Source of the DNA: a virus
IMG/VR virus record: IMGVR_UViG_3300037493_003174
Span: 1-64,000 of that record
Length of the DNA stretch: 64,000 nt
Strand: one strand, 5' to 3'
The position numbers and the translations under genes are program-made. Every line of letters starts with the position of its first letter. Position 1 is the stretch's first letter. Positions 1 to 51,257 of this stretch are shown here, one piece after another. The notes beneath the pieces were generated by a model. That model was not told the origin of the DNA, ran no database searches, and was given only the letters and a program-made list of their open reading frames with translations.

Positions 1-825
1 GTTGATGCTTACACAGGATGTTGTCCAGCAGATTCAATTTCTCCAATTGCAGTTGACTCAACTACAGTAATGATTTTATGGGCAAATGGTTTAACTACCA
101 ATCCAATTGTTGGTCCTTTTGTACAGATTGTTGTACAAGCTGAAGACGGAACATTATGGTATGCTCCAGGAACTAATGCTGCTTTCTTAGCTGCTAATGG
201 TGCTGATACTTGGAATAACTATGTATCTACAGGACACGTAGATGGTGCATGTGCAGGTTTGATCTTGAATGGTGCTTATGTTGATACTAAATTTGGTGAT
301 TGTACATTCCAATTATCTGATTTCTATGAAAAAGAAGCAGTTAAATTATATGCATCAGAAGTAGATTATAATGGTGAGCCATGTACATTTACAACTCTTT
401 GTGTAGTAACAGAATGTCAAGGTTTACAAGTTCAAGGTTTAGGAGAAACAGTTGTAAGAGATTTGGCTATGTCAGAATCTTACAGACAAAACTTCTTAGC
501 AACAGACTTACGTATCCGTGAGATTACTCAAGGAAACCAAATCATCAGTTCAGTTGATAGAAATGCTTTGTATTACAGATACATGTTACAACACAATGTA
601 CCACGTTTCAATAATCCATCTAGTACATTTGATAATGATCAGTACATGTTAGAGATATTTTCTTTAGCACCGCTTACAACATTCCTAGAGGATACTGCTG
701 GATGGTTAGATTCTTGTGGTGTATGTGAAATTGAATTCTTTGGTTGTGATACAGTATGTGATGTTCCAATTGCATTTCCTGCTGTGCCACCATACAATCC
801 ATACAATGTAGTTTCTTGTTACTAA
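1..825 (+). CDS. Virion structural protein, 5' truncated; possible C-terminal part of major capsid protein
   Basis: The reading frame is open back to base 1, so this is the last 274 codons of a longer gene; the ATG at 70 is internal. No enzymatic motif is visible. The segment running from ETVVRDLAMSESYRQ to the NPSSTFDNDQYMLEI stretch resembles, from memory, the C-terminal region of crAss-like major capsid proteins, but this was not tested. The C-terminus is rich in Cys (DSCGVCEIEFFGCDTVC). A strong intrinsic terminator follows directly, which fits a highly expressed capsid gene ahead of the tail genes. It could instead be another head or decoration protein. That it is structural is likely from context; the exact identity is uncertain. 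Confidence 0.5.
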   Translation, partial: VDAYTGCCPADSISPIAVDSTTVMILWANGLTTNPIVGPFVQIVVQAEDGTLWYAPGTNAAFLAANGADTWNNYVSTGHVDGACAGLILNGAYVDTKFGDCTFQLSDFYEKEAVKLYASEVDYNGEPCTFTTLCVVTECQGLQVQGLGETVVRDLAMSESYRQNFLATDLRIREITQGNQIISSVDRNALYYRYMLQHNVPRFNNPSSTFDNDQYMLEIFSLAPLTTFLEDTAGWLDSCGVCEIEFFGCDTVCDVPIAFPAVPPYNPYNVVSCY

Positions 826-847
826 GAATATTTAATTACTAACTAAT

Positions 848-886
848 AAAGGGGGAGAAGAGTTCTAAACTCCTCCCCTTTTTTTA
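848..886 (+). terminator. Rho-independent terminator
   Basis: The outer stem pairs GGGGAG (852-857) with CTCCCC (873-878), an AA bulge follows, and the inner stem pairs GAGTT (860-864) with AACTC (868-872). A run of T follows at 879-885. It ends the unit of the truncated structural gene. The last T residues overlap the promoter-like sequence of the next gene. Confidence 0.85.
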
Positions 887-899
887 ATATAATATTATG
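883..899 (+). promoter_or_regulatory. AT-rich promoter-like/start element
   Basis: TTTAATATAATATTATG lies between a terminator and the ATG at 897. It matches the element at 7458-7474 at 15 of 17 positions with the same distance to ATG, and that element also follows a terminator. A transcript started here would have almost no leader. The role as a promoter is inference; the AT-rich background weakens the case. Confidence 0.35.
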
Positions 900-1463
900 G
901 CAAATCATGTCTTAAGCTTAGAGGTTCCTTTTGTAATGAATGCCTGTGTTATGAAAATATTTGACACAAGTGTTTATACTGTGAATCCTTTAATACCAGT
1001 TACTTGCCCTACTCTTAATATAACAGTACCAGGCTTTAGTTACTCTAATCAAATTGAGGGAACTGTAATGACTGATTTTGTTAATACTGGTCATATTACA
1101 ATAACGGCATGTGACCTGCAATTACAAACTACACAATGTGGTACTCAATATGTAAATATTCCAGATGGGATTTACATAATCAAATACAGTGTATCTCCTA
1201 ATGATCAAGTATTTGTAGAGTATAATCATATGAGGATTACACAAGCAATGAATAAGTATTACAAAGTTCTTTGTGATGTTGATGCAAATGCATGTGATCC
1301 ACCCTTAAAAATTAAACAAAGATTAGAAGAATTACGTTTAATTAAAATGTATCTTGATGCTTCAATATCTAAAGTTGAGTTTTGTCATGAGCCTCAGAAA
1401 GGAATGAGCTTATATAACTATGCTTTAAAATTGTTAAACAAGATGACTTGTACAAATTGTTAA
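897..1463 (+). CDS. Conserved phage virion protein, 188 aa, Cys-rich
   Basis: The N-terminal part (about residues 1-120) is predicted to be beta-rich and contains a segment reading PDGIYIIKYSVSPND. The C-terminal part (about 125-188) looks helical and ends in Cys residues (KLLNKMTCTNC). No catalytic motif is seen. The helical part resembles in character a stretch of the 870-aa protein downstream (around KYEKISCNAAEILYKTVLRA), so the two may share an assembly or anchoring module. It is the first gene of a Cys-rich tail/adhesin unit (897-7353). The start is the first ATG after the terminator. Function is unknown; a tail or fibre-attachment component is inferred from position. Confidence 0.6.
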   Translation: MANHVLSLEVPFVMNACVMKIFDTSVYTVNPLIPVTCPTLNITVPGFSYSNQIEGTVMTDFVNTGHITITACDLQLQTTQCGTQYVNIPDGIYIIKYSVSPNDQVFVEYNHMRITQAMNKYYKVLCDVDANACDPPLKIKQRLEELRLIKMYLDASISKVEFCHEPQKGMSLYNYALKLLNKMTCTNC

Positions 1464-1483
1464 AATATTAAAACCAACTAATT

Positions 1484-1723
1484 ATGGCAAAATGTCCAAA
1501 CTGTGGTAACTCAATGAGTTGCGGATGTCAAAAAAGAACATTACCAAATGGATCACAAGGCTGCACAAGTTGTTTAGGAAAAGTTGCAGGAGCAACAAAA
1601 GCTCCAGTACCTGTTATAAAACAAGCAAGAAAAATTCCTGTAACAACTCAAAGCAAAAGACCCGTATCATTAAATGTATGGGGAAGAGAAAGATATAAAG
1701 ACTTAACTAAGTTTACAAAATAA
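1484..1723 (+). CDS. Small basic protein with N-terminal Cys cluster
   Basis: This is a 79-residue protein. It opens with MAKCPNCGNSMSCGCQKR, giving two CxxC/CxC-type pairs, followed by GCTSC. That suggests a small zinc-binding knuckle or disulfide knot. The rest is Lys/Arg-rich and appears disordered. The N-terminus is similar to that of the 404-aa fibre protein at 6139 (CTICGCSKPKCGCQ), so the CGCQ element may be a shared virion attachment tag. It sits 20 bases after the preceding gene and 7 before the next, so it is almost certainly co-transcribed with them. Function is unknown. Confidence 0.6.
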   Translation: MAKCPNCGNSMSCGCQKRTLPNGSQGCTSCLGKVAGATKAPVPVIKQARKIPVTTQSKRPVSLNVWGRERYKDLTKFTK

Positions 1724-1730
1724 AAAAGTA

Positions 1731-4343
1731 ATGAATGCTGTTGGTACACCATATTATAGTATTGTTCCTTGCTGTCCTGATTTTGGAACAGAGGACACTT
1801 TCTTTAACTTTCCAGTAACTGATGGACTAGTCCCAGATGGAGTTTATGTTTATAACAGTTCTACACCAGCACTTGTTAATGGTATACAATTTTTTGAAGG
1901 ACAGTGTTATACTATCACTCGTGTTGGTACAATCTTTTCCGTGTATCCAAACGCACCATCAATTTCTGAATTTACTTTTGCTGATGTATGTGGAAATGCA
2001 GATTTGTGCGACCCTTGTATACTACCAGTACAGTGTTACACTTTGTATCCATGTGTTTCAGGATTACCTGTTTTAGTATCAAGCAGTACTACATTAGCTC
2101 CCCTAGTAGGCGCATTTACAGGTTTAGTAGATAATGAAGGTTGTTATTTTGTAGTTGAAAATGTTCTGGGAGACTGTACTAATGCTAAAAATATTGTAGC
2201 TGATCCATTAGTAGATTGTAATTGTGAACTTAATTGTTACAGTATTACTGGTAATCCAATATCAGTTACTTATGTAAATGAAGACTTAGAGCTAGTAGTA
2301 ACTAGTGGAAGCACAAGAGTTTGTTCTTATATAGAACCTGGAGTTATTGGAAGTGTTGATGGTAGTGTATATAACTTTGGTCCTTGTGTTGATGGTTTAT
2401 GTCCTGACATTTGTTTTGAATTTACAAATTGTTTGACAGGAGAAATATTAATTGTATCTAATACTACAACAATTTTTGGATACTATACAAATAATAATGT
2501 AGTTACTCTACAAGGTTATGATGGTTGTTGGTCAATAGATATTTCTGATCAGCCATGTGACTGCGCAGTAAATGTGACAGTACTTCAAATATTTGATGAC
2601 TGTCCAACTTGTCTACCAATTATAGCATACAAGTTTACTAACTGTAACAATCAGTCTATTATTAAATACAGTCTAGATGATTACTCTGCTTATGTAGGTC
2701 AAACAGTAAAACTTGAATGTGGTGAATGTTGGTTTGTTGATTTGATTAACTATATGCCACCAGCAATACAACCAATAGTTATCATAACAACATTTGAATC
2801 TTGTCTTGCTTGTAGTAGAACATATTATGAATTATCAGATTGTTCAGGTGTAGAAAATTCAATTTATACTTTTACAGATTTGTCTGTCCTTGTAGGGTAT
2901 GTTATAAAAATTGAGTCTTGTGATACATGTTGGGAAGTTAGTCTTTTAGAATTTCCAACTATAGAACAATCTAGTATGGCTATAGCTGTTTTAATGACAG
3001 CTTCATATGTTGATTGTCCAGCATGTAATTTTCAATTTCCGTGTAGATGTTCAATTGCTTGGCCAGATCTTAATGGAGTATTATCTTATCTAGATTGTGA
3101 TAGTAAGCCTGTTGTATCTACAGGGTTAGATCCGGATGTACCTAGTGAAAAACTATGTGTAAGAGAATGGATTACTGCAAGAGAACCTATTTACTATGGA
3201 GATTGTATAGCATCAGATGGTCCTCTTATATGTATTAGTTATGTAATAACTATTGCACCCTTGATTCAACCACAAACGTTATACTATAAAGATTGTGAAG
3301 GAGTAGTTCAAACGCAACCTTTTACAAATAGTAAAATTATTAGGTATTTTTTTATGTGCGGGATACCTAATCAAACAAGTAGTGATATTTATATTACAGG
3401 AGATAAGCCAGTTACATTTGAAGCAGGAGCTCCTTGTGGAAATGTACCTGTATTAGTGTGCCCGCCAACAATCTACCCTACAAGATTTATCAAACCTGGT
3501 TATCAAACACCTACTTGTGACATAGAGAAGTATGAAAAAATATCATGTAATGCAGCAGAGATCTTATACAAGACAGTGCTTAGAGCAAGATATGGAATTT
3601 CAAATTGTTGTGATGGTCCAGATGATAGATGGCTTATCAAAAAAGAACTAATTGATTTGCAAGCAGCAATGGATCCAAACTATGTTTGTACATCAGTGCA
3701 ATCATGTTGTAACAATACATCTTCTTGTGGCTGTGGTTGTAATGTTACTTCACAAACAACTTGTCCGCTTCCTCCACTTCCTCCACCACCACCGCTTGTA
3801 TCATATAATTGTGTAGAAACACCAACTTGTGTACAGTATCAATGTACTATTGATCTAGATGGAGATGATCTTATAACTTTATTTTATATAAATTGTGAAG
3901 GTCAGAGAGCTCTGCAATCTTGGCAAAACGCAAAGGCTATAATTTCTGTTTTCATATGTTCAATCCCTAATGCAACAAATGAGGATATATATGTAACAGG
4001 TTCTCCGGACTTTACAATTACTCAAACAGATATTATATGTAAATCAACAGTTGATTGTGTGGAAGTACAAGGAACAAGTGGAACTTATCAAACATTGCTA
4101 GAATGTGAAACTAATTGTTCTCCACCACCTGTTGTATGTCATGAATATAAAATAGGTATAGTAACATATCTAGGAACATCATTTTCATATATTGATTGTT
4201 TAGGTCAAGTACAGATACAATTTGTACTTGGTTCAGATGCGGGACAACAAATTGGTATATGCGGAATTGCTGGACAAACTATCCCAACTCCTCTTAATGT
4301 AATTAGTTTTGTAGTTACGGAAACTAATGCAATTTGTACATAA
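1731..4343 (+). CDS. Large Cys-rich repeat protein, probable virion adhesin
   Basis: The protein has 870 residues, about 67 of them Cys (near 8 percent). Residues about 90-440 are repeats of 50-75 residues with a pattern of Cys, a short beta segment, a second Cys, a YVG or YTN turn, and a final GCW/ECW/TCW triplet. Residues about 450-870 hold three copies of a second unit (segments around LYYKDCEG, LFYINCEG and FSYIDCLG). Each has a matching Cys about 30 residues later. A helical segment with CC and a proline stretch (LPPLPPPPPL) separates them. Extracellular disulfide-rich repeats and the fibre genes nearby suggest a surface adhesin or fibre; no enzyme motif is seen. Similar CW repeats are known from environmental phages. 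Confidence 0.65.
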   Translation: MNAVGTPYYSIVPCCPDFGTEDTFFNFPVTDGLVPDGVYVYNSSTPALVNGIQFFEGQCYTITRVGTIFSVYPNAPSISEFTFADVCGNADLCDPCILPVQCYTLYPCVSGLPVLVSSSTTLAPLVGAFTGLVDNEGCYFVVENVLGDCTNAKNIVADPLVDCNCELNCYSITGNPISVTYVNEDLELVVTSGSTRVCSYIEPGVIGSVDGSVYNFGPCVDGLCPDICFEFTNCLTGEILIVSNTTTIFGYYTNNNVVTLQGYDGCWSIDISDQPCDCAVNVTVLQIFDDCPTCLPIIAYKFTNCNNQSIIKYSLDDYSAYVGQTVKLECGECWFVDLINYMPPAIQPIVIITTFESCLACSRTYYELSDCSGVENSIYTFTDLSVLVGYVIKIESCDTCWEVSLLEFPTIEQSSMAIAVLMTASYVDCPACNFQFPCRCSIAWPDLNGVLSYLDCDSKPVVSTGLDPDVPSEKLCVREWITAREPIYYGDCIASDGPLICISYVITIAPLIQPQTLYYKDCEGVVQTQPFTNSKIIRYFFMCGIPNQTSSDIYITGDKPVTFEAGAPCGNVPVLVCPPTIYPTRFIKPGYQTPTCDIEKYEKISCNAAEILYKTVLRARYGISNCCDGPDDRWLIKKELIDLQAAMDPNYVCTSVQSCCNNTSSCGCGCNVTSQTTCPLPPLPPPPPLVSYNCVETPTCVQYQCTIDLDGDDLITLFYINCEGQRALQSWQNAKAIISVFICSIPNATNEDIYVTGSPDFTITQTDIICKSTVDCVEVQGTSGTYQTLLECETNCSPPPVVCHEYKIGIVTYLGTSFSYIDCLGQVQIQFVLGSDAGQQIGICGIAGQTIPTPLNVISFVVTETNAICT

Positions 4344-4360
4344 TCTAGGATAAGTCAATA

Positions 4361-4390
4361 AAAATTGTTATATTATATTATAAGAAAAAT
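4361..4390 (+). promoter_or_regulatory. AT-rich promoter-like leader
   Basis: AAAATTGTTATATTATA starts 30 bases before the ATG at 4391. It resembles, with about the same distance, the AAAATTTAGTATATT leaders at 20237 and 45381. The match is weaker than among those two, so a promoter here is only a suggestion. Confidence 0.25.
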
Positions 4391-6127
4391 ATGAAACCTT
4401 TAAATTTAGATAATAGACCATGTAGTCCAATTTCAAGTAACTGTGTTATTTGGCAGGGCGGTGATATTTCATGCATTAACTTGTGTAGTGGAGATACAGT
4501 ATCTGATGTAGTATTTAAACTAGCTACAGAACTGTGTATAATCATGGATCAGTTAAATGTAAGTAACTATGACTTGTCATGTTTAGCAATAAACGCTTGT
4601 CCTCCTGTTGATTTTCATGCATTGATTCAATTATTGATTAATAAAGTTTGTGAAGCAAATGGAATTGTAGTAGATGCAACAAAAGCATCTGGTTGTCCAG
4701 ACTGTGTTGTATCAGTAGCCCCAGCTTTTGTTAAAGATACTCAAACTACTATGCAATTAGTAGACTATGTACAAGATGTTGCAAATAAAGTTTCTTCTAA
4801 TTTAGGTCAAATAGATGCAATTAATAATGAACTTGTTGTAGTTAATAATACATTAATAGATTTACAATATCAAATTAATAATTTTCCTGTTTATACTTTA
4901 CCAAATATTCCAGCTGATTGTATTTTACCAGCCGGTACTTATCCATTAGATCAAGTTCTTGATGCATTAATGAATGATGACATACTTGGATACTGTAGTT
5001 TATTAACTGCAACAGGTACACCTGCACAGATAGTAAGTGCTGTATTATCTCAATGTATTTTAGATGGTGACCCGTCATTGGCTTCACTTGCTGCTGGTGA
5101 TTCTCCAGTACAATCATTTTCTACCTACTACGCAGGCTCATGGGTTAATAACCCTTCTTTAACTACAACAAGTACAATAGCAAATGCAATTAAAAATATT
5201 TGGATTTCAATCTGTGATATTTATAGTTATGTTACTTCATTAGGTTTTATAGTAGCAGATACAAATACAGTTAACTTAACATATACTGCTGGATTATTAA
5301 CGGCTGCTGTACAAGATACAGGATGGCATGATCTAGAAGGGTTTGCTTATATGTCTGGATTTACAAGTGCTAATCCTCAGTGTAGAAGAATAGGAAATGA
5401 AATTATCTTTAGAGGTGTTATTCAAATACCTATGGGTAATGCATTAGATGGTGCAGGCGGAACAGTATGGCCTGTAAATTCTCCAGATGAGTATAATAGT
5501 TTACCATATGGTAAAGTATTAGATGTAGATACATCAGCAAGTCCAGATGCATGTTTAATGTATTCTTCTGGAGTTCCAGTAGTACCTTCTACTACTCCAG
5601 GAGTTAATAAAAATGAAGGTGTTTCAATATATTTTAGACAAGGTTTAAGAGTTATACCTTCAACTGTATTACCTCTTACTATAGATTTAGATAGATCATA
5701 TACAAATGGAAATAGACAGTTTATAAATAGAGCTATTAGTGTTAATGCAGGAACTAATGGGGTTTCTCTTGCAACACATGTAGGAGTATCAGTTAGTAGT
5801 ACAGGACAGTTAGTAGTTACAGCACCTTATGCTGTAGAAAATTATATTGGCACAGGTTTACAAGACAGTTCAATACTAAGAAGTGTTGTTAGTAATATTA
5901 TCCTTGGAGATAGTATTCCATTATACACAAACACAGCACCTAGTAATTCAAATTTTCTTGCAGCAGGTGTAGATAATGTAGATATAACGGGATCTGCTAT
6001 TACATGGCCTTTTACAGTAAACTGTGTTAATGCATATGAGTTAGGTGGCTTTACTGTAAGACTTGATGGATTGAGAGGTTATATAGATCCATGCGAAACT
6101 TTAATTGCTACACCACCACCTTGTTAA
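4391..6127 (+). CDS. Tail fibre/spike protein, paralogue of the next gene
   Basis: The protein has 578 residues. The N-terminal ~90 residues (CxPISSNCVIWQGGDISC, then LCSGDTVSDVVFKLATELC) look like a virion-anchoring domain. A helical region with NNELVVVNNTLIDLQYQI follows at about 130-165. A linker comes next, then a C-terminal module from D309 (DTGWHDLEGFAY) to the end (FTVRLDGLRGYIDP). That module is clearly related to residues 91-404 of the 404-aa protein downstream, both in its DTGW.DLEGFAY opening with RR.G..I.FRG and in its DGL..Y ending. The arrangement fits a fibre with an interchangeable receptor-binding domain. Receptor binding is inferred, not shown. Confidence 0.65.
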   Translation: MKPLNLDNRPCSPISSNCVIWQGGDISCINLCSGDTVSDVVFKLATELCIIMDQLNVSNYDLSCLAINACPPVDFHALIQLLINKVCEANGIVVDATKASGCPDCVVSVAPAFVKDTQTTMQLVDYVQDVANKVSSNLGQIDAINNELVVVNNTLIDLQYQINNFPVYTLPNIPADCILPAGTYPLDQVLDALMNDDILGYCSLLTATGTPAQIVSAVLSQCILDGDPSLASLAAGDSPVQSFSTYYAGSWVNNPSLTTTSTIANAIKNIWISICDIYSYVTSLGFIVADTNTVNLTYTAGLLTAAVQDTGWHDLEGFAYMSGFTSANPQCRRIGNEIIFRGVIQIPMGNALDGAGGTVWPVNSPDEYNSLPYGKVLDVDTSASPDACLMYSSGVPVVPSTTPGVNKNEGVSIYFRQGLRVIPSTVLPLTIDLDRSYTNGNRQFINRAISVNAGTNGVSLATHVGVSVSSTGQLVVTAPYAVENYIGTGLQDSSILRSVVSNIILGDSIPLYTNTAPSNSNFLAAGVDNVDITGSAITWPFTVNCVNAYELGGFTVRLDGLRGYIDPCETLIATPPPC

Positions 6128-6138
6128 AATAAAAAACT

Positions 6139-7353
6139 ATGGCAACAACATGCACAATCTGCGGATGCAGTAAACCAAAATGCGGATGTCAAGACACAAT
6201 GTTGACATCACCAGCACCATGTCCTACACCAGTAGGATGTCTTAATCCTGAGCCATGCTCTGAAGTATTAGATGCCCAATGTATTATATACACAGGTGAT
6301 GATATCATTTGTACACCAGATGTTGTAGTAAATGCAAATGATTCTGTTGCACTTGCATTAAATAATATAGTAGATTATTTTTGTTCTCAAAGTCCTACCC
6401 CTGTAGAAGATACTGGTTGGATAGACTTAGAAGGATTTGCATATTATCAATCAGGAATGGCTACACAAAAGCCACAAGTACGTAGAATGGGTAAACAGAT
6501 TCACTTTAGAGGTGATTTATACTTACCATTATCTGATGGTACAGTTATTCCTATTCCGTTGACTACTCCTGATACATATAGAACTCTGTTATATAAGACT
6601 CCTTATATAGGAGCTGGTGGATTAATTAATGATGGTACAGATAGATTATTATTTAATAGTTCAGGTTCTGCAGCTCAATCTGTAATTCCAACAAGTGTGT
6701 TGCCTGCATTAACTAATCTAGATGGAACTTATAAACTATCTAAACTTATTGCTACACGTCAATTTAGAATACGGGAACCACAAAGTGATACTGGATCAGG
6801 AACATTAACTTTAACTGCACCTATTATATTAGAAATTCTTCCTAATAAAACTTTACGCATAACACCAGTAGAAGTGATAGAATCTAATAGTGTTGACACT
6901 ATTAGTTTTGATGGTAACTCCGCCTTTAGAAACATTACAAGTAGTTTCAGTGGTAGAAGTATTATGACAAATTTAAAAAATTGGGTTAGTGCAAGAACTG
7001 GTTTACATAGTAGAGCGGGAAATATACAAACAGATGGGGTATTAATAATTGGTAGATTATACACTATGCTTGACTCTTATATAGGTGATGACTTTACAAA
7101 TGTAGGAGCAATTACAACGGGCTCTGGTCAATCATTTATTGCTACAGGAACAACACCTACTAGTTGGACGTTAGGTACTCAATTAATGGTAGTAGAGTTA
7201 TCAGATATAGAGGCAAGTTATCCTCCAAACGGTAATAATTTAGTAGCTTCATTCCCCGTACCACTAGATGGAAGTTACTTGGATGCTGGTAGTCATACAG
7301 ATATTGGTGGATTTAAAATTAGTTTAGATGGGCTTATAGCTTATTTAACATAA
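6139..7353 (+). CDS. Tail fibre/spike protein with CGCQ N-terminus
   Basis: The protein has 404 residues. The N-terminus (CTICGCSKPKCGCQ) matches the Cys motif of the 79-aa protein at 1484. Residues about 45-85 (AQCIIYTGDDIIC, then NDSVALALNNIVDYFC) correspond to the anchoring domain of the 578-aa protein. From D91 onward the shared module (DTGWIDLEGFAYYQSG) runs to FKISLDGLIAYLT at the C-terminus. It is the last gene of the Cys-rich unit, 11 bases after its paralogue, and is followed by a terminator. Duplication followed by divergence of receptor-binding genes is the simplest reading. Confidence 0.65.
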   Translation: MATTCTICGCSKPKCGCQDTMLTSPAPCPTPVGCLNPEPCSEVLDAQCIIYTGDDIICTPDVVVNANDSVALALNNIVDYFCSQSPTPVEDTGWIDLEGFAYYQSGMATQKPQVRRMGKQIHFRGDLYLPLSDGTVIPIPLTTPDTYRTLLYKTPYIGAGGLINDGTDRLLFNSSGSAAQSVIPTSVLPALTNLDGTYKLSKLIATRQFRIREPQSDTGSGTLTLTAPIILEILPNKTLRITPVEVIESNSVDTISFDGNSAFRNITSSFSGRSIMTNLKNWVSARTGLHSRAGNIQTDGVLIIGRLYTMLDSYIGDDFTNVGAITTGSGQSFIATGTTPTSWTLGTQLMVVELSDIEASYPPNGNNLVASFPVPLDGSYLDAGSHTDIGGFKISLDGLIAYLT

Positions 7354-7397
7354 CATAAGAAGTTGCAGGTTTGTTGGTTTCTTGTAACAACAACGGC

Positions 7398-7429
7398 AAA
7401 GCCCTCACACTTGTGGGGGTTTTGTTTTT
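7398..7429 (+). terminator. Rho-independent terminator
   Basis: CCCTCAC (7402-7408) pairs with GTGGGGG (7413-7419), with one T-G pair and an ACTT loop. The flanking AAAG pairs partly with the following TTTT, and a TTTTGTTTTT tail follows. It ends the adhesin/fibre unit. Confidence 0.8.
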
Positions 7430-7457
7430 ATACCTATATTTGCTAAAGTCATTTATT

Positions 7458-7474: not shown

Positions 7475-8053
7475 AGGGAATTTAATAATCCTGATGTTAA
7501 AGGAGCAAGGTTTAGACCGGATGTATTGAATGTGTTTAATCCAAAACTTGTAAAAGATTTTAAAAAAAAGTATCCTAAGTATAAAAACTTGGATTATAAG
7601 TTGTTGAAAGAAATCATGAGAAAATTCAACAATGCACTATTTCAAGGAGTTATAGATACTAGAGATGGTATACAATTACCAGAATCATTAGGATGGATTT
7701 TTATTGGGACATGTCAACAAAGTAAGAAAGAAAACATTGACTTTGCAAAGTCTAGAAAATATGGAGTAACAGTTACTAATAAGAATTGGGAAACAGATGG
7801 TAAATTAGCAAAGATCTTTTTTACTAATTATGCTCCAAAACATAGAATGCGCAATAGGGAATACTGGGGGTTTACAGCATGTAGAGAATTTAAAAGAACT
7901 GTAGCTAAAACTTATCCAGAAAACTGGAACACATACATTGTTGTAGATGCAACTCAAAGATTAAAGTTAGCATACAGCAAAGCAGTATACAAAGAAATTA
8001 AACTTAAGGAGACCATAAAGGCCCTTGAAAACTATAATGAGTTTGACCTATGA
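7472..8053 (+). CDS. Conserved crAss-like structural protein (connector region)
   Basis: This is a 193-aa basic protein without recognised enzymatic motifs. From memory, the segments DTRDGIQLPESLGWIFIGTC and the later WGFTACREFKR resemble a small protein conserved in the structural block of crAss-like phages, next to the ring proteins. It opens the connector/tail unit after a terminator and promoter-like element. Its stop overlaps the start of the next gene (ATGA), implying translational coupling. A head-tail connector role is inferred only from this neighbourhood. Confidence 0.6.
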   Translation: MREFNNPDVKGARFRPDVLNVFNPKLVKDFKKKYPKYKNLDYKLLKEIMRKFNNALFQGVIDTRDGIQLPESLGWIFIGTCQQSKKENIDFAKSRKYGVTVTNKNWETDGKLAKIFFTNYAPKHRMRNREYWGFTACREFKRTVAKTYPENWNTYIVVDATQRLKLAYSKAVYKEIKLKETIKALENYNEFDL

Positions 8054-8712
8054 CAACAGTTGGTGAAGCAATATCAAGAGTAAGAAATACTTTAAAAGCA
8101 GTGAAAGAGGATCCTTTTTTAACAGATAGGGTTATTTACTTTTCACTTATTAAGTATGCAAAGACTTTGATAAAAAGAGAAGACAATCAATTTAGACTAA
8201 TGAAGATGAGCTCTATATTTAGGGTGTTACCTTATATAGAACTTATTGATGTAGATAAAGTTGAGGCAGGGTGTATAGGAATATATTCTGAATGTTATTT
8301 TAAAAGATCTAAGGAAAAACTTCCAACTATACTTAATGGTATGTTTGGACCTATTATCCGTACTGCATCTTCTATAGATGGATCTATTGAACTATTTAGA
8401 ACAGAACCAGGTACTTGGATATCAATTACTAAATCTAGTACCTTCAAGTATAATAAAAGACCTTACTTTTGGTATCTTGATGGTTATCTATATTGTCCAA
8501 ACATTGATTGGGATGCAATAAGAGTTGAGGCAATTTTTGAAGGCACCTTAGATACATGTAATTCAGAAGAGTGTCAAATATTTCAAAATACAGATTTTGC
8601 TATTCCGGAATATTTATTCTCTGAAGTTGAACAGTTTGTCATAAAAGAATTAACCATGACTATGTCAGTTCCAACAGATGGTCCAGATGATAGTCAAAAT
8701 GCTCTTAGATAA
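8050..8712 (+). CDS. Probable ring/adaptor protein of the head-tail interface
   Basis: The protein has 220 residues and no catalytic motif. A helical N-terminus (GEAISRVRNTLKAVKEDPFLTDRVIYFSL) leads into a beta-rich middle and a helical C-terminus. This resembles the small adaptor proteins that precede the tail stabilisation gene in crAss-like phages. It overlaps the upstream gene by 4 bases, and its TAA overlaps the next ATG (TAATG). Strong coupling across 7472-15355 suggests one assembly module. The precise ring position cannot be told from sequence alone. Confidence 0.6.
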   Translation: MTTVGEAISRVRNTLKAVKEDPFLTDRVIYFSLIKYAKTLIKREDNQFRLMKMSSIFRVLPYIELIDVDKVEAGCIGIYSECYFKRSKEKLPTILNGMFGPIIRTASSIDGSIELFRTEPGTWISITKSSTFKYNKRPYFWYLDGYLYCPNIDWDAIRVEAIFEGTLDTCNSEECQIFQNTDFAIPEYLFSEVEQFVIKELTMTMSVPTDGPDDSQNALR

Positions 8713-9755
8713 TGGATTTTAATTACACACTTAAGTATCGCACATTTGATTCTTTACTAGAAGATGTCAGTATTGACTTAAATACTCTGGCCTTAGAGAA
8801 TATGATTGAGCCTCAGCAGCTTATCAAAGTAGCGCGCAGATTAAACTATGATCTTGGTTTAAGAATAAATCAAACTAAAGAAGCTGTATTAGAGGTTTGT
8901 CATGGAAGAGTTAAGCTCCCTGATGATTTCTATGTATGGAATTATGGAATGGTGTGTGGTGAATATACTGTTATGACTGGTTATGGTGGACAAGTTTCTG
9001 GAACTAATATTCAAGAGGTTCCTTATAGAGAGTTTCCAGCTACAGTTGATCAGTGTGCGCCTCCTACAGTTAATTGTAGAACCTGTAATTCTAATCCTTG
9101 TAATCATACTGCAGCATGTGATCTTAATCATCCTATAGTAGATCCAATACCAACTGAGTATGATCCAAATAATCCTTATGGTAATACATGCATTGCTCCA
9201 AGAGTATTTATGAACTGTAAAGGAGAGAAATGGGAACTGATACAAGAACTTAATCCAGTTCAATCAAGAGTTTACACATCTTTGGTTCCTTTAAGAATGA
9301 AGAAGAGTCAGAATATAGATTGTGAATGTCCAAATCTTTATTACAATACAGCTAATGAAGGTTGGCTAAAGGATAATTACTTATACACAACTTTTCAAAC
9401 TGGTCATGTTTACATAAACTACCAGGGAGAGATGACTGATGAGAATAATAATTTAATGGTTCCTAATCATGAATTAATCAATGACTATTATGAATATGCA
9501 TTGAAGAAAAGAATAATAGAAAACTTAGCTCTTAACGGAGAAGACATGGCTCAAAAGCTACAACTTATTATTCCAGAATTTAGAGCAGCAAGAAATGCAG
9601 CACTAAGTTTAGTTAATACACCAAACTTTAAAGAAATGGAAAAAGTATGGTGGACAAACAGAAAAGCACAGTATGCAAAATACTATGATATGTTTAAAAG
9701 TTATAGTCCAAATGATCCATACTTTAGAAGAACAGGAACTTCAAGACTGATGTAA
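8712..9755 (+). CDS. Probable ring/adaptor protein, 347 aa
   Basis: The opening residues (about 1-70: TFDSLLEDVSIDLNTLALENMIEPQQLIK split by short loops) resemble conserved connector proteins of crAss-like phages. A Cys-rich insert lies near residues 115-165 (CAPPTVNCRTCNSNPC region). The C-terminal half has an NYQGEMTDEN turn and long helices. No enzyme motif is present. The gene is joined to both neighbours by TAATG overlaps. It is likely part of the ring stack between portal and tail tube or muzzle; this assignment rests on gene order. Confidence 0.6.
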   Translation: MDFNYTLKYRTFDSLLEDVSIDLNTLALENMIEPQQLIKVARRLNYDLGLRINQTKEAVLEVCHGRVKLPDDFYVWNYGMVCGEYTVMTGYGGQVSGTNIQEVPYREFPATVDQCAPPTVNCRTCNSNPCNHTAACDLNHPIVDPIPTEYDPNNPYGNTCIAPRVFMNCKGEKWELIQELNPVQSRVYTSLVPLRMKKSQNIDCECPNLYYNTANEGWLKDNYLYTTFQTGHVYINYQGEMTDENNNLMVPNHELINDYYEYALKKRIIENLALNGEDMAQKLQLIIPEFRAARNAALSLVNTPNFKEMEKVWWTNRKAQYAKYYDMFKSYSPNDPYFRRTGTSRLM

Positions 9756-12700
9756 TGGCAAAAGGTTTACAGAATACAACTCAGAATGTTACCCGTAGTT
9801 TTTCTAAGGGGATGAACAAAGATGCCGATCCTTCTTTTGTAGGAGATGGGATGTGGACACATGCAAGAAATGCAACAAACAACACAGATGAGGGTAACAT
9901 TGGAACTCTTTCTAATGAGCAGTCTAATGTTCTTTGTGCAACTGCAGGATTAACAATGCCCGCTACTGCAGTAGACAAATATATCATTGGTACTATACAA
10001 CTATATTCAGATAAGTGGATAGTATTTACAGCAGGTCATGACTCAACTGGTATTCCAGTTATGTCAGAGATTGGTTTACTTGAAACTGATAACTGTATTT
10101 ATAGACCTATTGTTCAAGATGCCTGTCTTAAGTTTGATAAAAGATATTTAATAAGTGGAGCTTCAAGAGAGAAAGAAGATTGTACTTGGCAAGTATATTT
10201 TGCAGATGGTCTAAATCCAGATAGAGTTTTAAATGTAGGAGATCCTCAAACATGGCCAACGGCTAACTATTATTGGATAGGTCAATCTAATATAAACTAT
10301 TACTCAAATGGTACAAATGTACTTTTATGGCCAGGCGTAAAGTGGAAACAAATATGTACTGATGAAACAGGTGTATCAGAAACACAACCTGATGTTTGGC
10401 CTTCTGGTCATCCAATAGGTTGTATTACATGTGTTGATATTAATCAGTTAGATTGTGAGAAGATTAGATTAGCAAGACTAATGAAGACACCTTGTCTTAA
10501 TTTAATATTTGGTAATCAAGGTGGCACATTAAGAAATGGAACTTATTTTGCAACTATAGCATATAGTATCAAAGGTCAAAAAGTTACAGACTATTTTTCT
10601 CAAAGTAATAATCAACAAATTTGGACTTCCCAGGATTTACAAGGTTCACTTGTGCTTGAGCTAGAAGCTGACAGTGTAAACTTTGATGAGTTTATCTTGG
10701 TCATTGTACAAAATATAAACCAAGGAACTGTTGCAAAACAGATTGGTATATATTCTACTAGAACAACTATTATTGCTTTAGATCAAATAAAGGAAGATTT
10801 AATAACTGTACCATTAGAGCAACTTCCAATTCAGACACCAGTTTTTGAAAAATCTGATCAGATTGCTGAAGTAAATAATTACTTGCTTAGAGTTGGCCCA
10901 ACTTCTAAATTTGATTTTAACTATCAACCTTTAGCTAATCTTATTAGAGCTAGGTGGGCTTCAGTTGAGTATCCATCAGATTACTATGTTAAAAATGGAA
11001 ACAAAGCAAGTTATTTAAGAGATGAAGTTTATTGTTTCTTCATTAGATGGGTATATGATACAGGTGATAAATCTGCTTCTTATCATATTCCAGGAAGAGC
11101 CCCTGGATTATATAATGGAATACCAGAAGACGGAATAAGTTTTAATGAAAATGCATTAAGTGCAAGTGATAATGTATTTGAAGTATTTAACACAGCTTCA
11201 ATTGGAACAATACCTAGTGGTCTATCAACTACAACAGATGATGGAGGTACAGTAATTGCAGTTGGAAACATGGGCTATTGGGAATCTACTGAAAAATATC
11301 CAGATAATACACCGGAAATTTGGAATACAAGCTTTCAATGCTGGACAGGATTTTATAATCAACCAAGTAATGTTTATGATTTATGTGGTGATAACATAAG
11401 ACATCACAAGTTTCCAGACAACTGTTTAGATCCAAGTGCAAATAAACTTACTAATCATTTTAAACCTACAGTAAGTAATCAACCTAATGAATTAAAAATT
11501 AGATTGCTAGGAGTTTATTTTGAAAATATTGCATATCCAAAAGATAATGAAGGAAATGATATTCCAGGAATTATTGGATATGAAATCTTAAGAGGTTCAA
11601 GAGAAGGTAATAAGTCTATCATTGCAAAAGGTATGCTTAACAATTTTAGAACATATGATATTGTTGGACAAGTAAATAATCCAGCTGCTCCAAGAAAAGG
11701 TATCTATGCAAATTATCCATTTAATACTATTAAACCTTTTTATAATACAGGTACAGGTACTGATCATAACAGAGGTCTTATTGATCCCTATATAAGAATT
11801 CCAGATCCTAATGATCCTCAAAATAGTGTGCTTGATCAAAACGTTCCCTTAGATTTTGTTAGTTTTCATTCTCCAGATACAAGTTTTAGAACTCCCTTTT
11901 TATCTGCAACAGAACTTAAAATTTATGGATACTTAAGAGGAGCCTCAACTCAAAGATTTATTGAACCAAATCAACATCCTAAGTTTAAATTATTTTCTGA
12001 TCTTGCTATTGCACCAATGTTTGTAGTTGGAATTGCTGAAGCTATTGTATCTGTGATAGGTAAAAGAACATTTAGTGATCCCTCTGTGCAATCTTATACT
12101 GAACAAATGAGGGGTACTGCTGGTGTTGGTGCAATCAATCTTACATTAGGTCCAACAGGTGTAGGACAACTTACTTCAGGAACAAGTATAGCGGGTGCAG
12201 GTGGAAGAATTGATGATTCAGCAGCACAAAACACAGCTTTAGGACTTATACGTAATCTACCTGGAGGTATTACATCATGGAACCAATTTTGGAATACATA
12301 TTATTCATCAGGTAATGCAATTATTGATGTACCCTTAATGATTGCTGGAGGTTTTCCATTAACTACAGTGGGTATTGCTACAACAGCACTTAGGACTGTA
12401 CTAAACAACAATGCAAATAATGCAGGTATCCCCTTAGCAAACCAAACAGGAACTATTGAGTTACCTAACTTTGCATATTTACCTGCAGCATTAAGAATTG
12501 CTTCTGGAGTAAGTCAACTATTATTCTATTTTTCTGAAGGAGCTAATCTTGCTGCTGATATTATTAGAGCTATTATTCCTTATACACAATATGCATTACA
12601 AATGATTGCTCATGGGTTCTACTCAGATATGAGATCACCTGATGCTTCAAAATTATTTAGATTTAATATTGAAGATAGCTCTTACATAAGAGATAATATT

Positions 12701-15355
12701 ATGCAGATGCCGGGTTATTATAATGCAGCAGGTACTTTCCAATCTTACAGTATTAATAACCTTAAAAGATCTGACGCAGTTGTAATAAGAACAGATGCTG
12801 GTCCAAATTATGCAGGCCCCTATAGTAATGGTGTTATTGGTCCAAACTATATTCTTGAATCTTTAAGCTATGTAGATCAATCATTAACTACTCTTGGACA
12901 TATACAGCAAAATGGTTTGGTTAATGCAGTTACATTAAATTCCTATTTTCCTAATCCAAATGTAGGTCCAAATTTTGAGTATAAAGATGCTAATTTTGCT
13001 TTGCCTATTGCTAGTCATTATGCAGCAATGAAAGTAAGAATCCAAAATCAATATGGTCAACTACAAGCTATAAAACAAATTGTAATAACTCCATGTGAGC
13101 AAAAGTTTAATTACAATACTTTAGAACCATGGGGTCCTTATAATCAATGTGGATCATGTAATCTTGCAGTTGTTATTAAAAAGATTAATATTACTCCAAT
13201 ATTTTTTGGTGGAGATGTTTATATAAATAGATACACAGAAAAAAATTCAATGTTCTTTTTTTATGATTGGTTATATGGTCAGCCTGATGGATTTGAATAT
13301 AACTATGCAATTCATCAGATGATTCCTGAACCAAGATTTTATGTTAACTCTAAAAAGTATGAAGTATCAGATCTTAATCCTGCTAACTTAAATGCAGTAA
13401 CACCCGGAACAGGAGCCTTTCCAACAAGATTTTATAGAATGGATCATGGGCCAACAAATACAAATCCAGGATATGACTATACGGATGATACAGCAGGAGA
13501 TTATCCAGGTGTGTTTAGACCAAAAGATTCATACTTCTATTTAGCTGTTTCTTCTGTAAGAGATTTCTTTGTTGAGTCAGATGTGATAGTAGACTATAGA
13601 GAAGCTGGAGACTATGAATGGGAAAAACATTATGACCCATACCGGTATACTCAACTTAGTAGAATGTTTGATATGAATCCTGATATTATTACAAGAGGTA
13701 ACTGGTATAGATATGATTATTCATTAAGTGTAAGTAAACTATATAATCAGTATTTCTCTTCTGGTAATTTACAAAATAGATACTATAATCCAAATGTATC
13801 TCAACTATGTTATACATATCTTCCAGATAGAATTTATTATTCATTGCAACAACAAGATGAATCATTTAAAGATAGTTGGTTTATATTTTTACCAAATAAC
13901 TATAGAGAATTTAAGTCTCAGATATCTGGTGTTAAGTCTATAAATAAAAGTGGTTTATTTATTACATTTAAAAATGACAGCCCCCAAATGTTCCAAGGTG
14001 TTGATACACTTCAGACAGATTTAGGAACTAAGATAACTATTGGTGATGGTGGTTTATTTTCTCAACCCGCTCAATCTGTTTCAAATGCCGATAGACCATA
14101 TGAGTATGGATCATCTCAAAGTAGACTTGGAGTTATCTCTACCCCAGCAGGCTTATTCTATGCATCACAAAATCAAGGTAAGTTGTTTAGTTATGGAGGA
14201 GGGTTAAAAGAAATATCTCAAGTTGGATTAAAATGGTGGTATTCAATGTTCTTAAGATGTAAACTTATAACTCAGTTTCCTGATTATCCATGGCAAGATA
14301 ATCCAGTAGCTGGTGTAGGTGTACAGGCTGTATATGATAATGAAAATTCTAGACTTTACTTTAGTAAAAAAGATTATATTGTTAAAGATGGAATTGATTT
14401 AGATAGAGTAGATTATGTACCATTAGTAGTTGACTGCCGTCAAATAAGTAATGGTAAAGGCTATAGAAAAGGACAAGGAGATTTCTTTACCTTAGATGGT
14501 AATGGAAGATATTTATTAGGTGATCCTGCTATATTTGAAAGTGCCTCTTGGACAGCAAGTTATGATCCTAAGAATGAGATGTGGATTTCATTTCATGACT
14601 GGCATCCTGATTTAGTAATGCCAAGTAAAACTATTTTCTTAACAACAAAGAAAAATAGTTTTTGGAAACATAACTATGTATGTGATTCTTATTGTAAGTT
14701 CTATGGAATAGAATATCCTTTTGAGATTGAAACTCCTATTGTTACTGGTCAATCACCAACAGTAATTAAGTCATTTGAATACATTATTGAAGCATATAAA
14801 CATGCAGCAAACTGTGTTGATCAATTTCAAGTATTAGACTATAACTTTGATACAGCAATTGTTCATAATGCAGAGCAAGTATCTGGATACTTAAATTTAA
14901 ATATATTTCCTAAAAACAATATTACATTGAGTTTAGAATATCCTAAGTTTAATCCATCTATTCCCATGATCATTAGGGATACAGTAGTTGGTCTGCCTGG
15001 ATTTGATATCTTGTTCTCAAAAGAAGAAAACAAATATAGATTTAATCAGTTCTGGGATGTAACAAGAGACAGAGGAGAATTTCCTATTGGTTCTGGTTAT
15101 CCTCCACAGGGCCCATTAGTTCCAGGAACAACTGAGTTGCTTGGTAATTATCCTCAAGAGATTGCATGGATTACATTACCTGATGGATACCGTAGAGAAT
15201 TAAATCTTATAAATTTAGATTACAACAAAGCTCAATTACAAAGAAAAAAGTTCAGACATTATTTAAACTATATAACTTTAAGAAAAGAAATTTCTGGTAA
15301 TATTAACATGGTTGTTAAAGTACTAAACAGTAAGAATCAATCTTCTTTAAGATAA
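9755..15355 (+). CDS. Tail stabilisation (muzzle-type) protein
   Basis: The protein has 1866 residues. The N-terminus (TRSFSKGMNKDADPSFVGDG, then ARNATNNTDEGNIGTLSNEQ) is the hallmark of the large protein called stabilisation or muzzle-type in crAss-like phages: a GMNKD.DP.....G motif followed by ARNA. The body is rich in Asn, Tyr and Gly and predicted mainly beta. A hydrophobic Ala/Gly-rich region is found near residues 750-960. The C-terminus (YNKAQLQRKKFRHYLNYITLRKE) is basic. It is coupled to the ring-type genes upstream and to the 1618-aa protein downstream by TAATG overlaps. It should form the distal tail tube or its cap. It is longer than I remember for relatives in gut phages. Confidence 0.75.
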   Translation: MAKGLQNTTQNVTRSFSKGMNKDADPSFVGDGMWTHARNATNNTDEGNIGTLSNEQSNVLCATAGLTMPATAVDKYIIGTIQLYSDKWIVFTAGHDSTGIPVMSEIGLLETDNCIYRPIVQDACLKFDKRYLISGASREKEDCTWQVYFADGLNPDRVLNVGDPQTWPTANYYWIGQSNINYYSNGTNVLLWPGVKWKQICTDETGVSETQPDVWPSGHPIGCITCVDINQLDCEKIRLARLMKTPCLNLIFGNQGGTLRNGTYFATIAYSIKGQKVTDYFSQSNNQQIWTSQDLQGSLVLELEADSVNFDEFILVIVQNINQGTVAKQIGIYSTRTTIIALDQIKEDLITVPLEQLPIQTPVFEKSDQIAEVNNYLLRVGPTSKFDFNYQPLANLIRARWASVEYPSDYYVKNGNKASYLRDEVYCFFIRWVYDTGDKSASYHIPGRAPGLYNGIPEDGISFNENALSASDNVFEVFNTASIGTIPSGLSTTTDDGGTVIAVGNMGYWESTEKYPDNTPEIWNTSFQCWTGFYNQPSNVYDLCGDNIRHHKFPDNCLDPSANKLTNHFKPTVSNQPNELKIRLLGVYFENIAYPKDNEGNDIPGIIGYEILRGSREGNKSIIAKGMLNNFRTYDIVGQVNNPAAPRKGIYANYPFNTIKPFYNTGTGTDHNRGLIDPYIRIPDPNDPQNSVLDQNVPLDFVSFHSPDTSFRTPFLSATELKIYGYLRGASTQRFIEPNQHPKFKLFSDLAIAPMFVVGIAEAIVSVIGKRTFSDPSVQSYTEQMRGTAGVGAINLTLGPTGVGQLTSGTSIAGAGGRIDDSAAQNTALGLIRNLPGGITSWNQFWNTYYSSGNAIIDVPLMIAGGFPLTTVGIATTALRTVLNNNANNAGIPLANQTGTIELPNFAYLPAALRIASGVSQLLFYFSEGANLAADIIRAIIPYTQYALQMIAHGFYSDMRSPDASKLFRFNIEDSSYIRDNIMQMPGYYNAAGTFQSYSINNLKRSDAVVIRTDAGPNYAGPYSNGVIGPNYILESLSYVDQSLTTLGHIQQNGLVNAVTLNSYFPNPNVGPNFEYKDANFALPIASHYAAMKVRIQNQYGQLQAIKQIVITPCEQKFNYNTLEPWGPYNQCGSCNLAVVIKKINITPIFFGGDVYINRYTEKNSMFFFYDWLYGQPDGFEYNYAIHQMIPEPRFYVNSKKYEVSDLNPANLNAVTPGTGAFPTRFYRMDHGPTNTNPGYDYTDDTAGDYPGVFRPKDSYFYLAVSSVRDFFVESDVIVDYREAGDYEWEKHYDPYRYTQLSRMFDMNPDIITRGNWYRYDYSLSVSKLYNQYFSSGNLQNRYYNPNVSQLCYTYLPDRIYYSLQQQDESFKDSWFIFLPNNYREFKSQISGVKSINKSGLFITFKNDSPQMFQGVDTLQTDLGTKITIGDGGLFSQPAQSVSNADRPYEYGSSQSRLGVISTPAGLFYASQNQGKLFSYGGGLKEISQVGLKWWYSMFLRCKLITQFPDYPWQDNPVAGVGVQAVYDNENSRLYFSKKDYIVKDGIDLDRVDYVPLVVDCRQISNGKGYRKGQGDFFTLDGNGRYLLGDPAIFESASWTASYDPKNEMWISFHDWHPDLVMPSKTIFLTTKKNSFWKHNYVCDSYCKFYGIEYPFEIETPIVTGQSPTVIKSFEYIIEAYKHAANCVDQFQVLDYNFDTAIVHNAEQVSGYLNLNIFPKNNITLSLEYPKFNPSIPMIIRDTVVGLPGFDILFSKEENKYRFNQFWDVTRDRGEFPIGSGYPPQGPLVPGTTELLGNYPQEIAWITLPDGYRRELNLINLDYNKAQLQRKKFRHYLNYITLRKEISGNINMVVKVLNSKNQSSLR

Positions 15356-20267: not shown

Positions 20268-23200
20268 ATGAAAAAAAGAGTTAGAATCTATAAGAGCCCA
20301 ACAGGTGAAGGACAGTTTTTAAATAAGACTGCACAATTTTTACGTAAAGCTCAGATGGGTGGTGCACCTACTGCAGAAGAATTATCATATCCGGGTGCTA
20401 CTCAAGGTCAAACACAACAAGTAGATGATAATCAACTTGCTTCATTAGTACTACAAGATATTAGTAACTCAAGACCAAAAGAAGAGATAGTAGTTAAGTT
20501 GGTGAATATGTATGGTAAAGATCCAATGGAAGCAACTACTTTGGTAAATCAAATGTATACTTATCTTGAAGAACAATCAGAAGCACAGAAAGAAGAAGAT
20601 TCTGAAGAATCATCAGATGAAGAAATTACAGGTGGAGATCCAGAAGATGCTCAGGAGGAAACAGTAATGAATCCTGTTCAAGAAATTGAAGAAGACTTCT
20701 ATGGTGATGACATGAATAATGATATGGCAAATCAAGTTGCTAATGAAGATGATGAAGTAGAAGATGATGATACTGATGTTGCTTCTCAAGTAGTAATGAT
20801 GAGAGGCGGCTACATGAGAGCACAAGATGGAGCAGAAATAGAAAGTGAATATCCAATTGTATTTCCAGGAGTTGAAGCATACTTACCTGCAAACATGTCT
20901 GACATGATGGGTGGTAGTTATGATGTAGCAACTGGAGAAGCTTGGCAAAGACCAGAGTTTACTGCACCTGAAACTTCAGATGATGCTGGTATCTCATATG
21001 GTTATATGGATCAAGGTGCAGAGGAAGCAATGGTAGAAGATGCCCCTGAAGGAATACCAACAGAAGAAAGTGAGTATAGAAAAGGTGGAGCTTACAAAAA
21101 AGGTAAGAGTGCTTATGTAAATTCTGTACTTAAGTTAGTTAAGAAACAAATAGGTGGAGATCAAGAAAATAATAATCCTAATGACCTTACTAAAAAAGAA
21201 GATCAATCAGATCCAATTGGAAATGATTTAAGAAGAGGTATCTTAAGTAATTATATTGGAACCCTTAAGAATCAAGGTCAGATGGCTGTTGCTAAAGAAG
21301 AAGCAGAACAACAGTATGATCAAATGATGCAACAGCAACAAATGATGCAACAGGGTATGCCTCAAGCTCCAATGAATTATTCTGAAAATGGTGAAATGCT
21401 TGATGAAGCTCAGTTTGGTGGATTGTTTAATAGAAGAAGAAATCAAGAAGGTCAAGAGAGAAGAGGCTTGTTCAATAGAAAACCAAGGATTCCACAAGGA
21501 TTTGGTTATGGCTATCCTCCAATAGAATCAGTAGATGTATACAAGAGAGGTATATTTGGTAGACCAAAAGAATACTCAGTTAACTTTGGACAAATGCCAT
21601 CTGTTATGCCAGGTTATGGTATGCAAGGTAGTGGACCAGGTTTCTATGGTTATGGTTATACAGGTACTAAAAAGACTCCTGCAAGAAAAATTGTAGAAGA
21701 TAATGCTATTTATGTAAATAGTCAAGCTAATAAAGATGTAGCTGTAGTTACTCCGGGTAATGAAGCAACTAATAAAGATGTTAAGGTTGAAGAAAAAGTT
21801 GAAGTAAAAGCTGATGGTACAACAGAAACAGTTGCAACTACTGAAGTTAAAACTCCTGGGACTGAAACTCCGGTTACTGTAAACAGTTCTAAAACTGCAA
21901 AAGAAAAACAAGTTACTAAAGATCAAGTAAAAGGTCAAAAAGAAGTTAATGTTCAGAAACGTGCTGATGGTATTTACACTTATCCAAATAAGACTGCAAT
22001 TTATAAGAAACAAAATAACCAGTGGTATATTGATATAACTGGTGTAGGAAATGCATTTCAAAAAGTTTCTTCTGGAGATGTAGAGGGTAGAGTAAATGCA
22101 TTAGAAAAAAATGCTGTAACATATGTTCAACCAAAAGCTAAAGTAGTACCCATTCCTATTGGAAATAGGCCTGACTTAATGAAAGATGCAACAGGAGTAG
22201 CTTCTCAAGTAAGACAGGTTGCAGTTCCAACTTATGATTTTAAAAAACCAAAACCAAAAGTTAACGCTTTTGATATGGATAAAATTATGGCTCCAATAAA
22301 AGATCCATTCATGTTCCCAAGACAAACAGTGATTGATCCAAAAGGATCACAACTTTTTGGATTACAAGATGGAGGTATCATACAAGATCCTTTTTCTGAT
22401 GAGTATGGTAATCTTCAAAGATTTGTTTATGGAGGAGATGATGATCTATCACTTGCAAATATGGATCAGTCTGATATTGATTACACAGGATCAGAAGATG
22501 TAACAGATCCATACTTTCAAAAAGGAGGTTTGCTTAAAAACTTGTTTCCTGCTAACTTAAATAGAAATTACAGTACAGAATATAGAGGTGCACGTAATGC
22601 TGCAGGAGAAGTTGTTCCTGGTTATTTTGGTAAGAATTCACAACTTAAATCAGTAGATGTTCAAAAAACAGGTTTATTAAGTGGAAGACCTAAGAAGTAT
22701 TCAGTTACTTTTAGTAATCAAAGTTCTGATCCAACTAAACCAATGATTAGTTTAGATAGACCAGGTACAGAAAGTGTTATACCTAAAAAAGCTCCTATGG
22801 CTTTATCTCAAAGAGAAATGGATAGAGGTGATAGACAAGCAGGAAGACAGAGACCATTAACTGCTGGTAAAAAATATGAAAAATATTTTGAAGAACCTGT
22901 ATTGAATGAGGAAGAACAAGCAAAAGCTTTTGATAATCAATTAAAATATCAAGCTAATGTAGATGCTTATCATAAGGAAAGATCAGATAATACTGCAATG
23001 ATTAATAAAATGTTTAATCAAAAAGGAGAACAGCCTGGAATAACACAAAATCAAATGCAAGAGTTTCAGCAGATGATTGGTAATCAAACAGGAATACCTA
23101 GTTATGCTGAATCTCCATATCCAACTCAAGTAATGCGTCCTGAAGGTGAGTTTCCTGAAGGATATGTACAAAGGAATCCAATGTATGGTGCAGCATCAGA

Positions 23201-23969: not shown

Positions 23970-23977
23970 TTTAAGCT

Positions 23978-26281: not shown

Positions 26282-26294
26282 ACTTAATAAGTTT
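26280..26294 (+). repeat. Inverted repeat just after a stop codon
   Basis: AAACTTAATAAGTTT overlaps the TAA of the 767-aa gene. It repeats the element at 20210-20224 with one changed base. A second overlapping arm (AAGTTTATTAAACTT, 26290-26304) extends the symmetry. Confidence 0.5.
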
Positions 26295-26340
26295 ATTAAA
26301 CTTAAAAAATGTTGATACTTTTATAAAGAATTAGAATAAC

Positions 26341-34714: not shown

Positions 34715-34717
34715 GCT

Positions 34718-45382: not shown

Positions 45383-45411
45383 AATTTAGTATATTTAATT
45401 AAAGAAAAGAT
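45381..45411 (+). promoter_or_regulatory. AAAATTTAGTATATT promoter-like leader
   Basis: AAAATTTAGTATATT begins at the stop codon of the RNAP gene, 31 bases before the next ATG. It is identical in sequence and spacing to the leader at 20237. It would let the 1947-aa gene be transcribed apart from the RNAP gene. Confidence 0.5.
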
Positions 45412-51255: not shown

Positions 51256-51257
51256 CA

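Follow-up and report, generated by a model that had tools for sequence, protein, structure and literature searches.

The DNA window analyzed here, bases 1 to 64,000 of an 82,341-base virus record, encodes at positions 1731 to 4343 of its plus strand an 870-residue, cysteine-rich protein, W3, which is probably an external tail component of a crAss-like phage. We put the probability of this reading at roughly 60%: W3 would sit in the collar or fiber-docking region and consist of disulfide-stapled modules of two kinds, CW and YD, with a conserved C-terminal anchor. In the mechanism that we propose, small beta-rich modules would be strung together and stapled by disulfides, and a conserved, cysteine-containing helical domain, C-terminal in the closest relatives, would anchor W3 to other cysteine-rich proteins of the collar, with W2, ring protein 1 and the N termini of W4 and W5 as candidate partners. 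Variation in the number of modules among phages would alter the reach or binding of an exposed arm, possibly in contact with a surface or receptor. The protein would be made in reduced form and oxidized late, at or after lysis.

The open reading frame is intact from ATG to stop and holds exactly 67 cysteines, in agreement with the original prediction of about 67 in 870 residues. They make up 7.7% of the protein (67/870), compared with a mean of 0.87% in 291 other distinct plus-strand ORFs of at least 150 residues from related loci, and the binomial tail for such a count at 1% Cys is 6e-37. The motif Y.(D/N)C.G occurs three times (residues 519, 719 and 820), with 0.02 occurrences expected and three or more found in none of 5000 shuffled sequences. 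The pattern [YF].[LF].[NDS]C is also present three times, a count seen in one of 5000 shuffles, as is CW (residues 266, 333 and 400), the same count of which arose in 63 of 5000. The two repeat families claimed initially, including three Y.(D/N)C.G copies, were thus recovered, and profiles refined them to more units. We dropped the number of CxxC motifs as evidence, since the six present are at chance level (5.06 expected from composition, reached in 1945 of 5000 shuffles).

Relatives of W3 were collected in scans of the IMG/VR database, which yielded 14 loci first and then, in an alignment-based scan, 66 loci that include most of the first 14. The search patterns of the latter scan sit in the C-terminal domain, so that by construction all 66 loci carry this domain. 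W3 could be read in each of the 67 records, counting that of the window, and in 65 of them it adjoins W2. Alignment A1 comprised 11 of the first 14 loci. Removing two cut-off copies (L062 and L065) from the 67 proteins and filtering at 90% identity left 48 sequences with 41 to 91 Cys residues each; omission of five long proteins (L054, L074, L075, L078 and L080) gave the 43 rows of alignment A2, and omission of nine of these 43 with inserts gave the 34 rows of A4. Over the 43 rows, Cys accounts for 18 of the 33 invariant columns and for 46 of the 122 columns conserved in at least 80%.

Judged by its genes, the window belongs to a crAss-like phage. Pfam models identified two Crassvirales proteins, both encoded on the plus strand, namely ring protein 2 (8050..8712; PF25702, E 2.1e-22) and ring protein 1 (8712..9755; PF24228, 30.4 bits, cut-off 27). 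The genes around W3, all on the plus strand, are W1 (1..825, open at the record start), W2 (897..1463, 188 residues), a candidate tail-hub protein by its place only, the fiber-like genes, also by place, W4 (4391..6127) and W5 (6139..7353), and a large virion protein in the muzzle position (9755..15355). A tblastn search with the latter found 32 records, all below 60% identity, namely Leptolyngbya phage Lbo-JY46, Cellulophaga and Flavobacterium phages, csAssE-Sib and one unannotated record. The order W1-W2-W3-W4-W6-ring protein 2-ring protein 1 is constant in all 58 records that have the seven genes (67 examined); the test did not include W5, whose length varies. W5 ranges from about 80 to 600 residues among the relatives, with up to 15% Cys in its short forms, and is rich in Cys and Pro at the 14 N termini examined. 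No RNA family was detected in the first 10 kb.

The cysteine density singled out as rare in the original prediction holds as to amount, but characterizes the tail-collar block as a whole rather than one protein: the five large ORFs at 70 to 7353 have 116 Cys in 2291 residues (5.06%). Counting columns with Cys in at least 90% of the rows present, we found 15 conserved cysteines in the W1 family, 8 in W2, 14 in W4 (8 of them in the first ~90 residues), 9 in W5, which has a cysteine-rich N terminus, 4 in ring protein 2 and 9 in ring protein 1; the protein in the muzzle position has 12. This neighborhood also bears on the possibility that W3 decorates the capsid, as a head fiber or portal-vertex protein. 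The virion of phiCrAss001 does have head fibers and a disulfide-linked portal-vertex dimer, gp57, according to the part of the published report available (PMC10172136). However, the W3 gene has fiber-like and ring-protein genes as its neighbors and is several kilobases away from that of the capsid (a crass major capsid protein is encoded upstream in the relative L017; PF23898, E 3.7e-32), which makes a place on the capsid unlikely.

The modules of W3 could be delineated along most of the protein. It begins with a Cys-rich beta unit (residues 6-98, 1746..2024) to which the CW profile could not be aligned. CW unit a (101-169, 2031..2237), which scored 99.2% by hhalign against a CW profile that includes its own slot, is followed by a divergent YD unit (167-226, 2229..2408) recognized in a profile-profile comparison. 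The CW units b (227-295, 2409..2615), c (298-362, 2622..2816) and d (364-433, 2820..3029) were detected by profile search and are covered by an AlphaFold2 (AF2) model of the CW triple. Next come a second divergent YD unit (434-494, 3030..3212), also found by profile-profile comparison, and a YD unit (500-569, 3228..3437) detected by profile search. The conserved anchor-like domain (577-676, 3459..3758), modeled with medium to low confidence, has predicted helices at 598-621 and 633-647, then the sequence CC...CGCGC. Behind it, a linker of proline-rich sequence (678-698, 3762..3824) leads to two YD units identified by profile search (699-770, 3825..4040, and 802-869, 4134..4337). All of these units are encoded on the plus strand.

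Profile searches of the window protein thus returned four CW and three strong YD units. The CW profile detected four units in 37 of the 48 proteins, five in 10 and three in one. The YD profile, grown from the three Y.DC.G units of the window and applied at a threshold of E 1e-3, detected three units in the window, one in nine other proteins and none in 38; some of the nine are matches to the core slots. These core slots, 167-226 and 434-494, scored 90.9% against each other in profile-profile comparison, and 91.0% and 97.8%, respectively, against the YD profile, the latter two values being not fully independent; pairs expected to be unrelated scored at most 5%. Outside W3, neither profile had a match in the 66 loci found by alignment or in the window to 26 kb. 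The closest relative, L016, has 598 residues and is 68% identical to the window protein, from which it differs by missing the YD unit at 500-569, before the C-terminal domain, and the two after it, behind the proline run. Three extra YD units, two of them carried behind the anchor on a proline linker, fit an exposed arm with changing reach or binding.

In the AlphaFold2 model of full-length W3, block means were 78 to 96 for residues 101-490, confidence was medium to low in the anchor region, and pLDDT was below 50 for residues 653-870. The three-unit CW array modeled alone, residues 224-436 with 18 Cys, reached a mean pLDDT of 92.4. Neither the full-length nor the CW-triple model matched a solved structure in the PDB at E <= 0.001, the best second-look Z scores being 3.7 and 2.8. 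A known fold for W3 was thus not supported by this comparison, which does not prove a new one.

The variation of the cysteines among relatives makes disulfides more plausible than zinc knuckles, though it is no proof of them. At positions 138 and 163 (window numbering), both residues are Cys in 13 rows, only 138 in three, only 163 in none and neither in 27. On the tree, position 163 changed five times and position 138 six times, and every change at 163 was accompanied by the same change at 138 on that branch; in a control covering column pairs with three or more changes, 70 of 93,096 non-Cys pairs share at least 75% of their changes. Positions 102 and 165 changed jointly both times, too few events for the control. 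Columns 438 and 456 are both Cys in 34 rows and both lacking it in seven, with one single of each kind, and columns 167 and 184 likewise in 31 and 10, with one single of each kind; both pairs have fewer than two joint changes on the tree. Cysteines 14, 59 and 96, and 224, 476, 492 and 577, were lost together in two rows each; the rows concerned lack or misalign the whole stretch, so that this co-loss can mean loss of a module. In the CW profile, the Cys residues of columns 2 and 47 agree in 146 of 149 units covering both ends (52 of 201 units were left out), an agreement that is not independent because units of one slot are orthologous.

Alternatively, the cysteines could bind zinc within each CW unit, in a CxxC...CxxC arrangement stable in the cytoplasm without disulfides. 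The layout of units c and d is indeed reminiscent of a zinc ribbon, in that a pair of Cys precedes the W strand and the helix carries a fixed CxxC; the CxxC after the W strand is invariant in all 34 rows for each of three CW units. However, the spacing of the first Cys pair varies: over the 34 rows, it is two residues in 15 rows, one in 16, three in one and six in one for unit c, and two in 20 and three in 13 for unit d, one row in each case being without both Cys. The constant CxxC...CxxC spacing of a zinc ribbon was therefore not found in the CW unit, and the paired gain and loss that characterizes disulfides was, with five joint changes for one pair and two for another. Moreover, the best-supported co-changing cysteines come in twos, units a and b are short of one Cys of the would-be four, and His is scarce (0 to 7 residues per protein in the 48). 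Zinc binding by the CW units is thus quite improbable. The metal binding proposed originally has become less likely for W3 and is more open for the six-cysteine mini-protein encoded next to it, while the disulfides proposed with it gained indirect support from the paired changes, the variable CxxC spacing and the precedent of phiCrAss001.

With five Cys in each of units c and d and seven in unit b, some of the disulfides would link neighboring units. Neither thioredoxin nor glutaredoxin families were detected in 23 records, which may be fragments, the controls being found in 13 of 14 genomes each; Evr1/Alr was not detected either, a result without weight since its control was found nowhere. 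Oxidation of W3 would thus rest on the host or on release. The family would raise the question of how chains with 41 to 91 cysteines, made in a reducing cytoplasm, are folded. A non-virion role for W3, as an assembly factor or an exported protein acting at the host surface, would also fit its few Lys and Arg residues and abundant beta strands, as in secreted proteins, but is the least probable of the alternatives given that the gene lies inside a structural block of constant order and that the N terminus, judged by eye, shows no apparent signal peptide.

The 267-base gap between W2 and W3 contains a small plus-strand ORF (1484..1723) that is overlooked at the usual length cut-off. It encodes a 79-residue mini-protein with six invariant Cys in the pattern CxxC-x5-CxC-x11-CxxC. 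Taking the longest ORF revealed it in only 29 of 51 gaps; with a profile built from the clearest copies, all 65 records proved to have a relative of 45 to 79 residues in this gap, and exactly six columns, all Cys, are invariant in 47 aligned rows. A scan with the mini-protein and without W3 gave 176 relatives, 80 of which were analyzed. W2 is upstream in 79 of the 80, and a CW protein directly downstream in 76; the C-terminal domain of W3 was recognized in 65 of these CW proteins. Two of the four exceptions end at a contig edge (L100 and L149), and two have another ORF (L164 and L175). A stretch identical to an earlier locus is present in 34 of the 80 loci; 46 are new, 42 of them with a CW protein. 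The mini-protein had no match in Pfam, none by tblastn among 50,697 named phage records and none in five reference stretches beyond a single one at E 0.46. Its matches in the PDB were weak, two of the three being zinc fingers (best E 0.026). It may be a collar strap, a zinc ribbon or a thiol-handling factor.

The cysteine-rich block is followed by six very large plus-strand genes (20268..51255), which by their place only could encode injected cargo and which have 12 Cys in 10,295 residues (0.12%). Eight of the 12 belong to the gene at 23978 to 26281, and genes of similar size in three relatives have six to eight; in the 40-kb downstream stretches of three relatives, the Cys count of ORFs of at least 400 residues ranges from 0 to 8. 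Five named phages have 23 ORFs of this length after the muzzle gene, some cut by the end of the stretch, and 22 of these contain 0 to 2 Cys; the exception is a 544-residue protein of csAssE-Sib with eight. Ejection of cargo with partial unfolding has been proposed for phiCrAss001 in the available part of its description (PMC10172136). We infer that injected proteins avoid Cys because they need to unfold, and that the giant genes encode such cargo. A cysteine-rich outside and a cysteine-poor cargo would provide a simple sequence trait for guessing which phage proteins are injected. It is conceivable, if doubtful as a whole, that this group of phages sorts Cys by compartment, with a stapled exterior (hub, collar arm and fiber bases), a nearly Cys-free cargo that unfolds through the tail, and a mini-protein that keeps the exterior cysteines zinc-bound or reduced, or catalyzes their pairing, until lysis.

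Other features of the downstream region are a 1618-residue protein (15355 to 20211) with a SET domain match (PF00856, E 1.7e-9) and, below the cut-off, a peptidoglycan-binding one, and a 1947-residue protein (45412 to 51255) in which residues 1632-1674 form a LysM domain (PF01476, E 5.8e-10). Coding strand and GC skew switch at 51256 to 51421, the large genes being on the plus strand before and on the minus strand after this point, as if two blocks met there.

As far as sequence comparison reaches, the W3 family is undescribed in the libraries searched. W3 had no match in Pfam, PHROGs or NCBIfam, with no Pfam family up to E 1, and, by sequence, nothing under E 0.15 in the PDB. Profiles of known fibers, hubs and binding domains, including BACON, in the libraries searched did not match it. 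A tblastn search with W3 of the window, L031, L080 and L081 found no match among the 50,697 named phage records; among named phages no DNA nearly identical to window positions 1 to 20,000 was found, and in stretches from five of them the W3 profile had no match at E 0.1. The 144 and 13 candidate stretches of bacterial genomes contained no relative. Among the matches listed in a literature search over titles and beginnings of abstracts, no paper dealt with such a protein; PMC12750041, in the part available, has no bearing on W3.

Two viral proteins resemble the CW triple of W3 by fold model. Comparison of the CW triple with the BFVD library of viral models matched A0A516LFR9 (E 4.2e-7, probability 1.00) and A0A6J5LX60, listed as from an uncultured Caudovirales phage (E 6.8e-3, probability 0.99), both at 15 to 17% identity. 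The 1503-residue protein of csAssE-Sib (L085:409-4920) is similarly long and modular, has 55 Cys (3.7%) and lies upstream of ring protein 2; unlike W3, it carries BACON and DUF5977 repeats, and it did not match the W3 profile at E 0.1.

The closest parallel for the proposed role is phiCrAss001, whose tail collar (gp38 THA, gp39 THB, gp40, gp43 and gp22) is like the window in the neighborhood of ring proteins 2 and 1, which scored 94.4% and 81.2% by hhalign. In the portion of the report available (PMC10172136), cryo-EM located disulfides in the tail hub, the rings and the gp57 dimer. They include those of the Cys-rich hub protein gp38, which has 11 Cys in about 215 residues (5.1%). In contrast with the window, phiCrAss001 has no W3 match in the stretch examined, and its gp22 has no Cys in the first 227 residues, whereas the N termini of W4 and W5 are rich in it. 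The Pfam hub models PF25724 and PF25711 matched none of the 13 records other than named phages, including that of the window, and phiCrAss001 alone among four named records; they are thus narrow, since phi17:2, csAssE-Sib and Fpv1 were missed too. Assignment of W2 to the THA/THB hub proteins was rejected because these models did not match it, although W2 and gp38 are alike in layout by eye. The same assignment was rejected for the C-terminal domain of W3, which never exceeded 20% by hhalign against gp38 or gp39, far from the values of the ring proteins. W3 therefore represents a new family that the tests run place outside the known crassvirus tail-hub proteins and that may work like them. The structure of phiCrAss001 is the only one of a crassvirus virion among the literature matches listed; if our reading of W3 is true, the disulfides of crass tails would extend from hub-ring bonds to whole modular arms.
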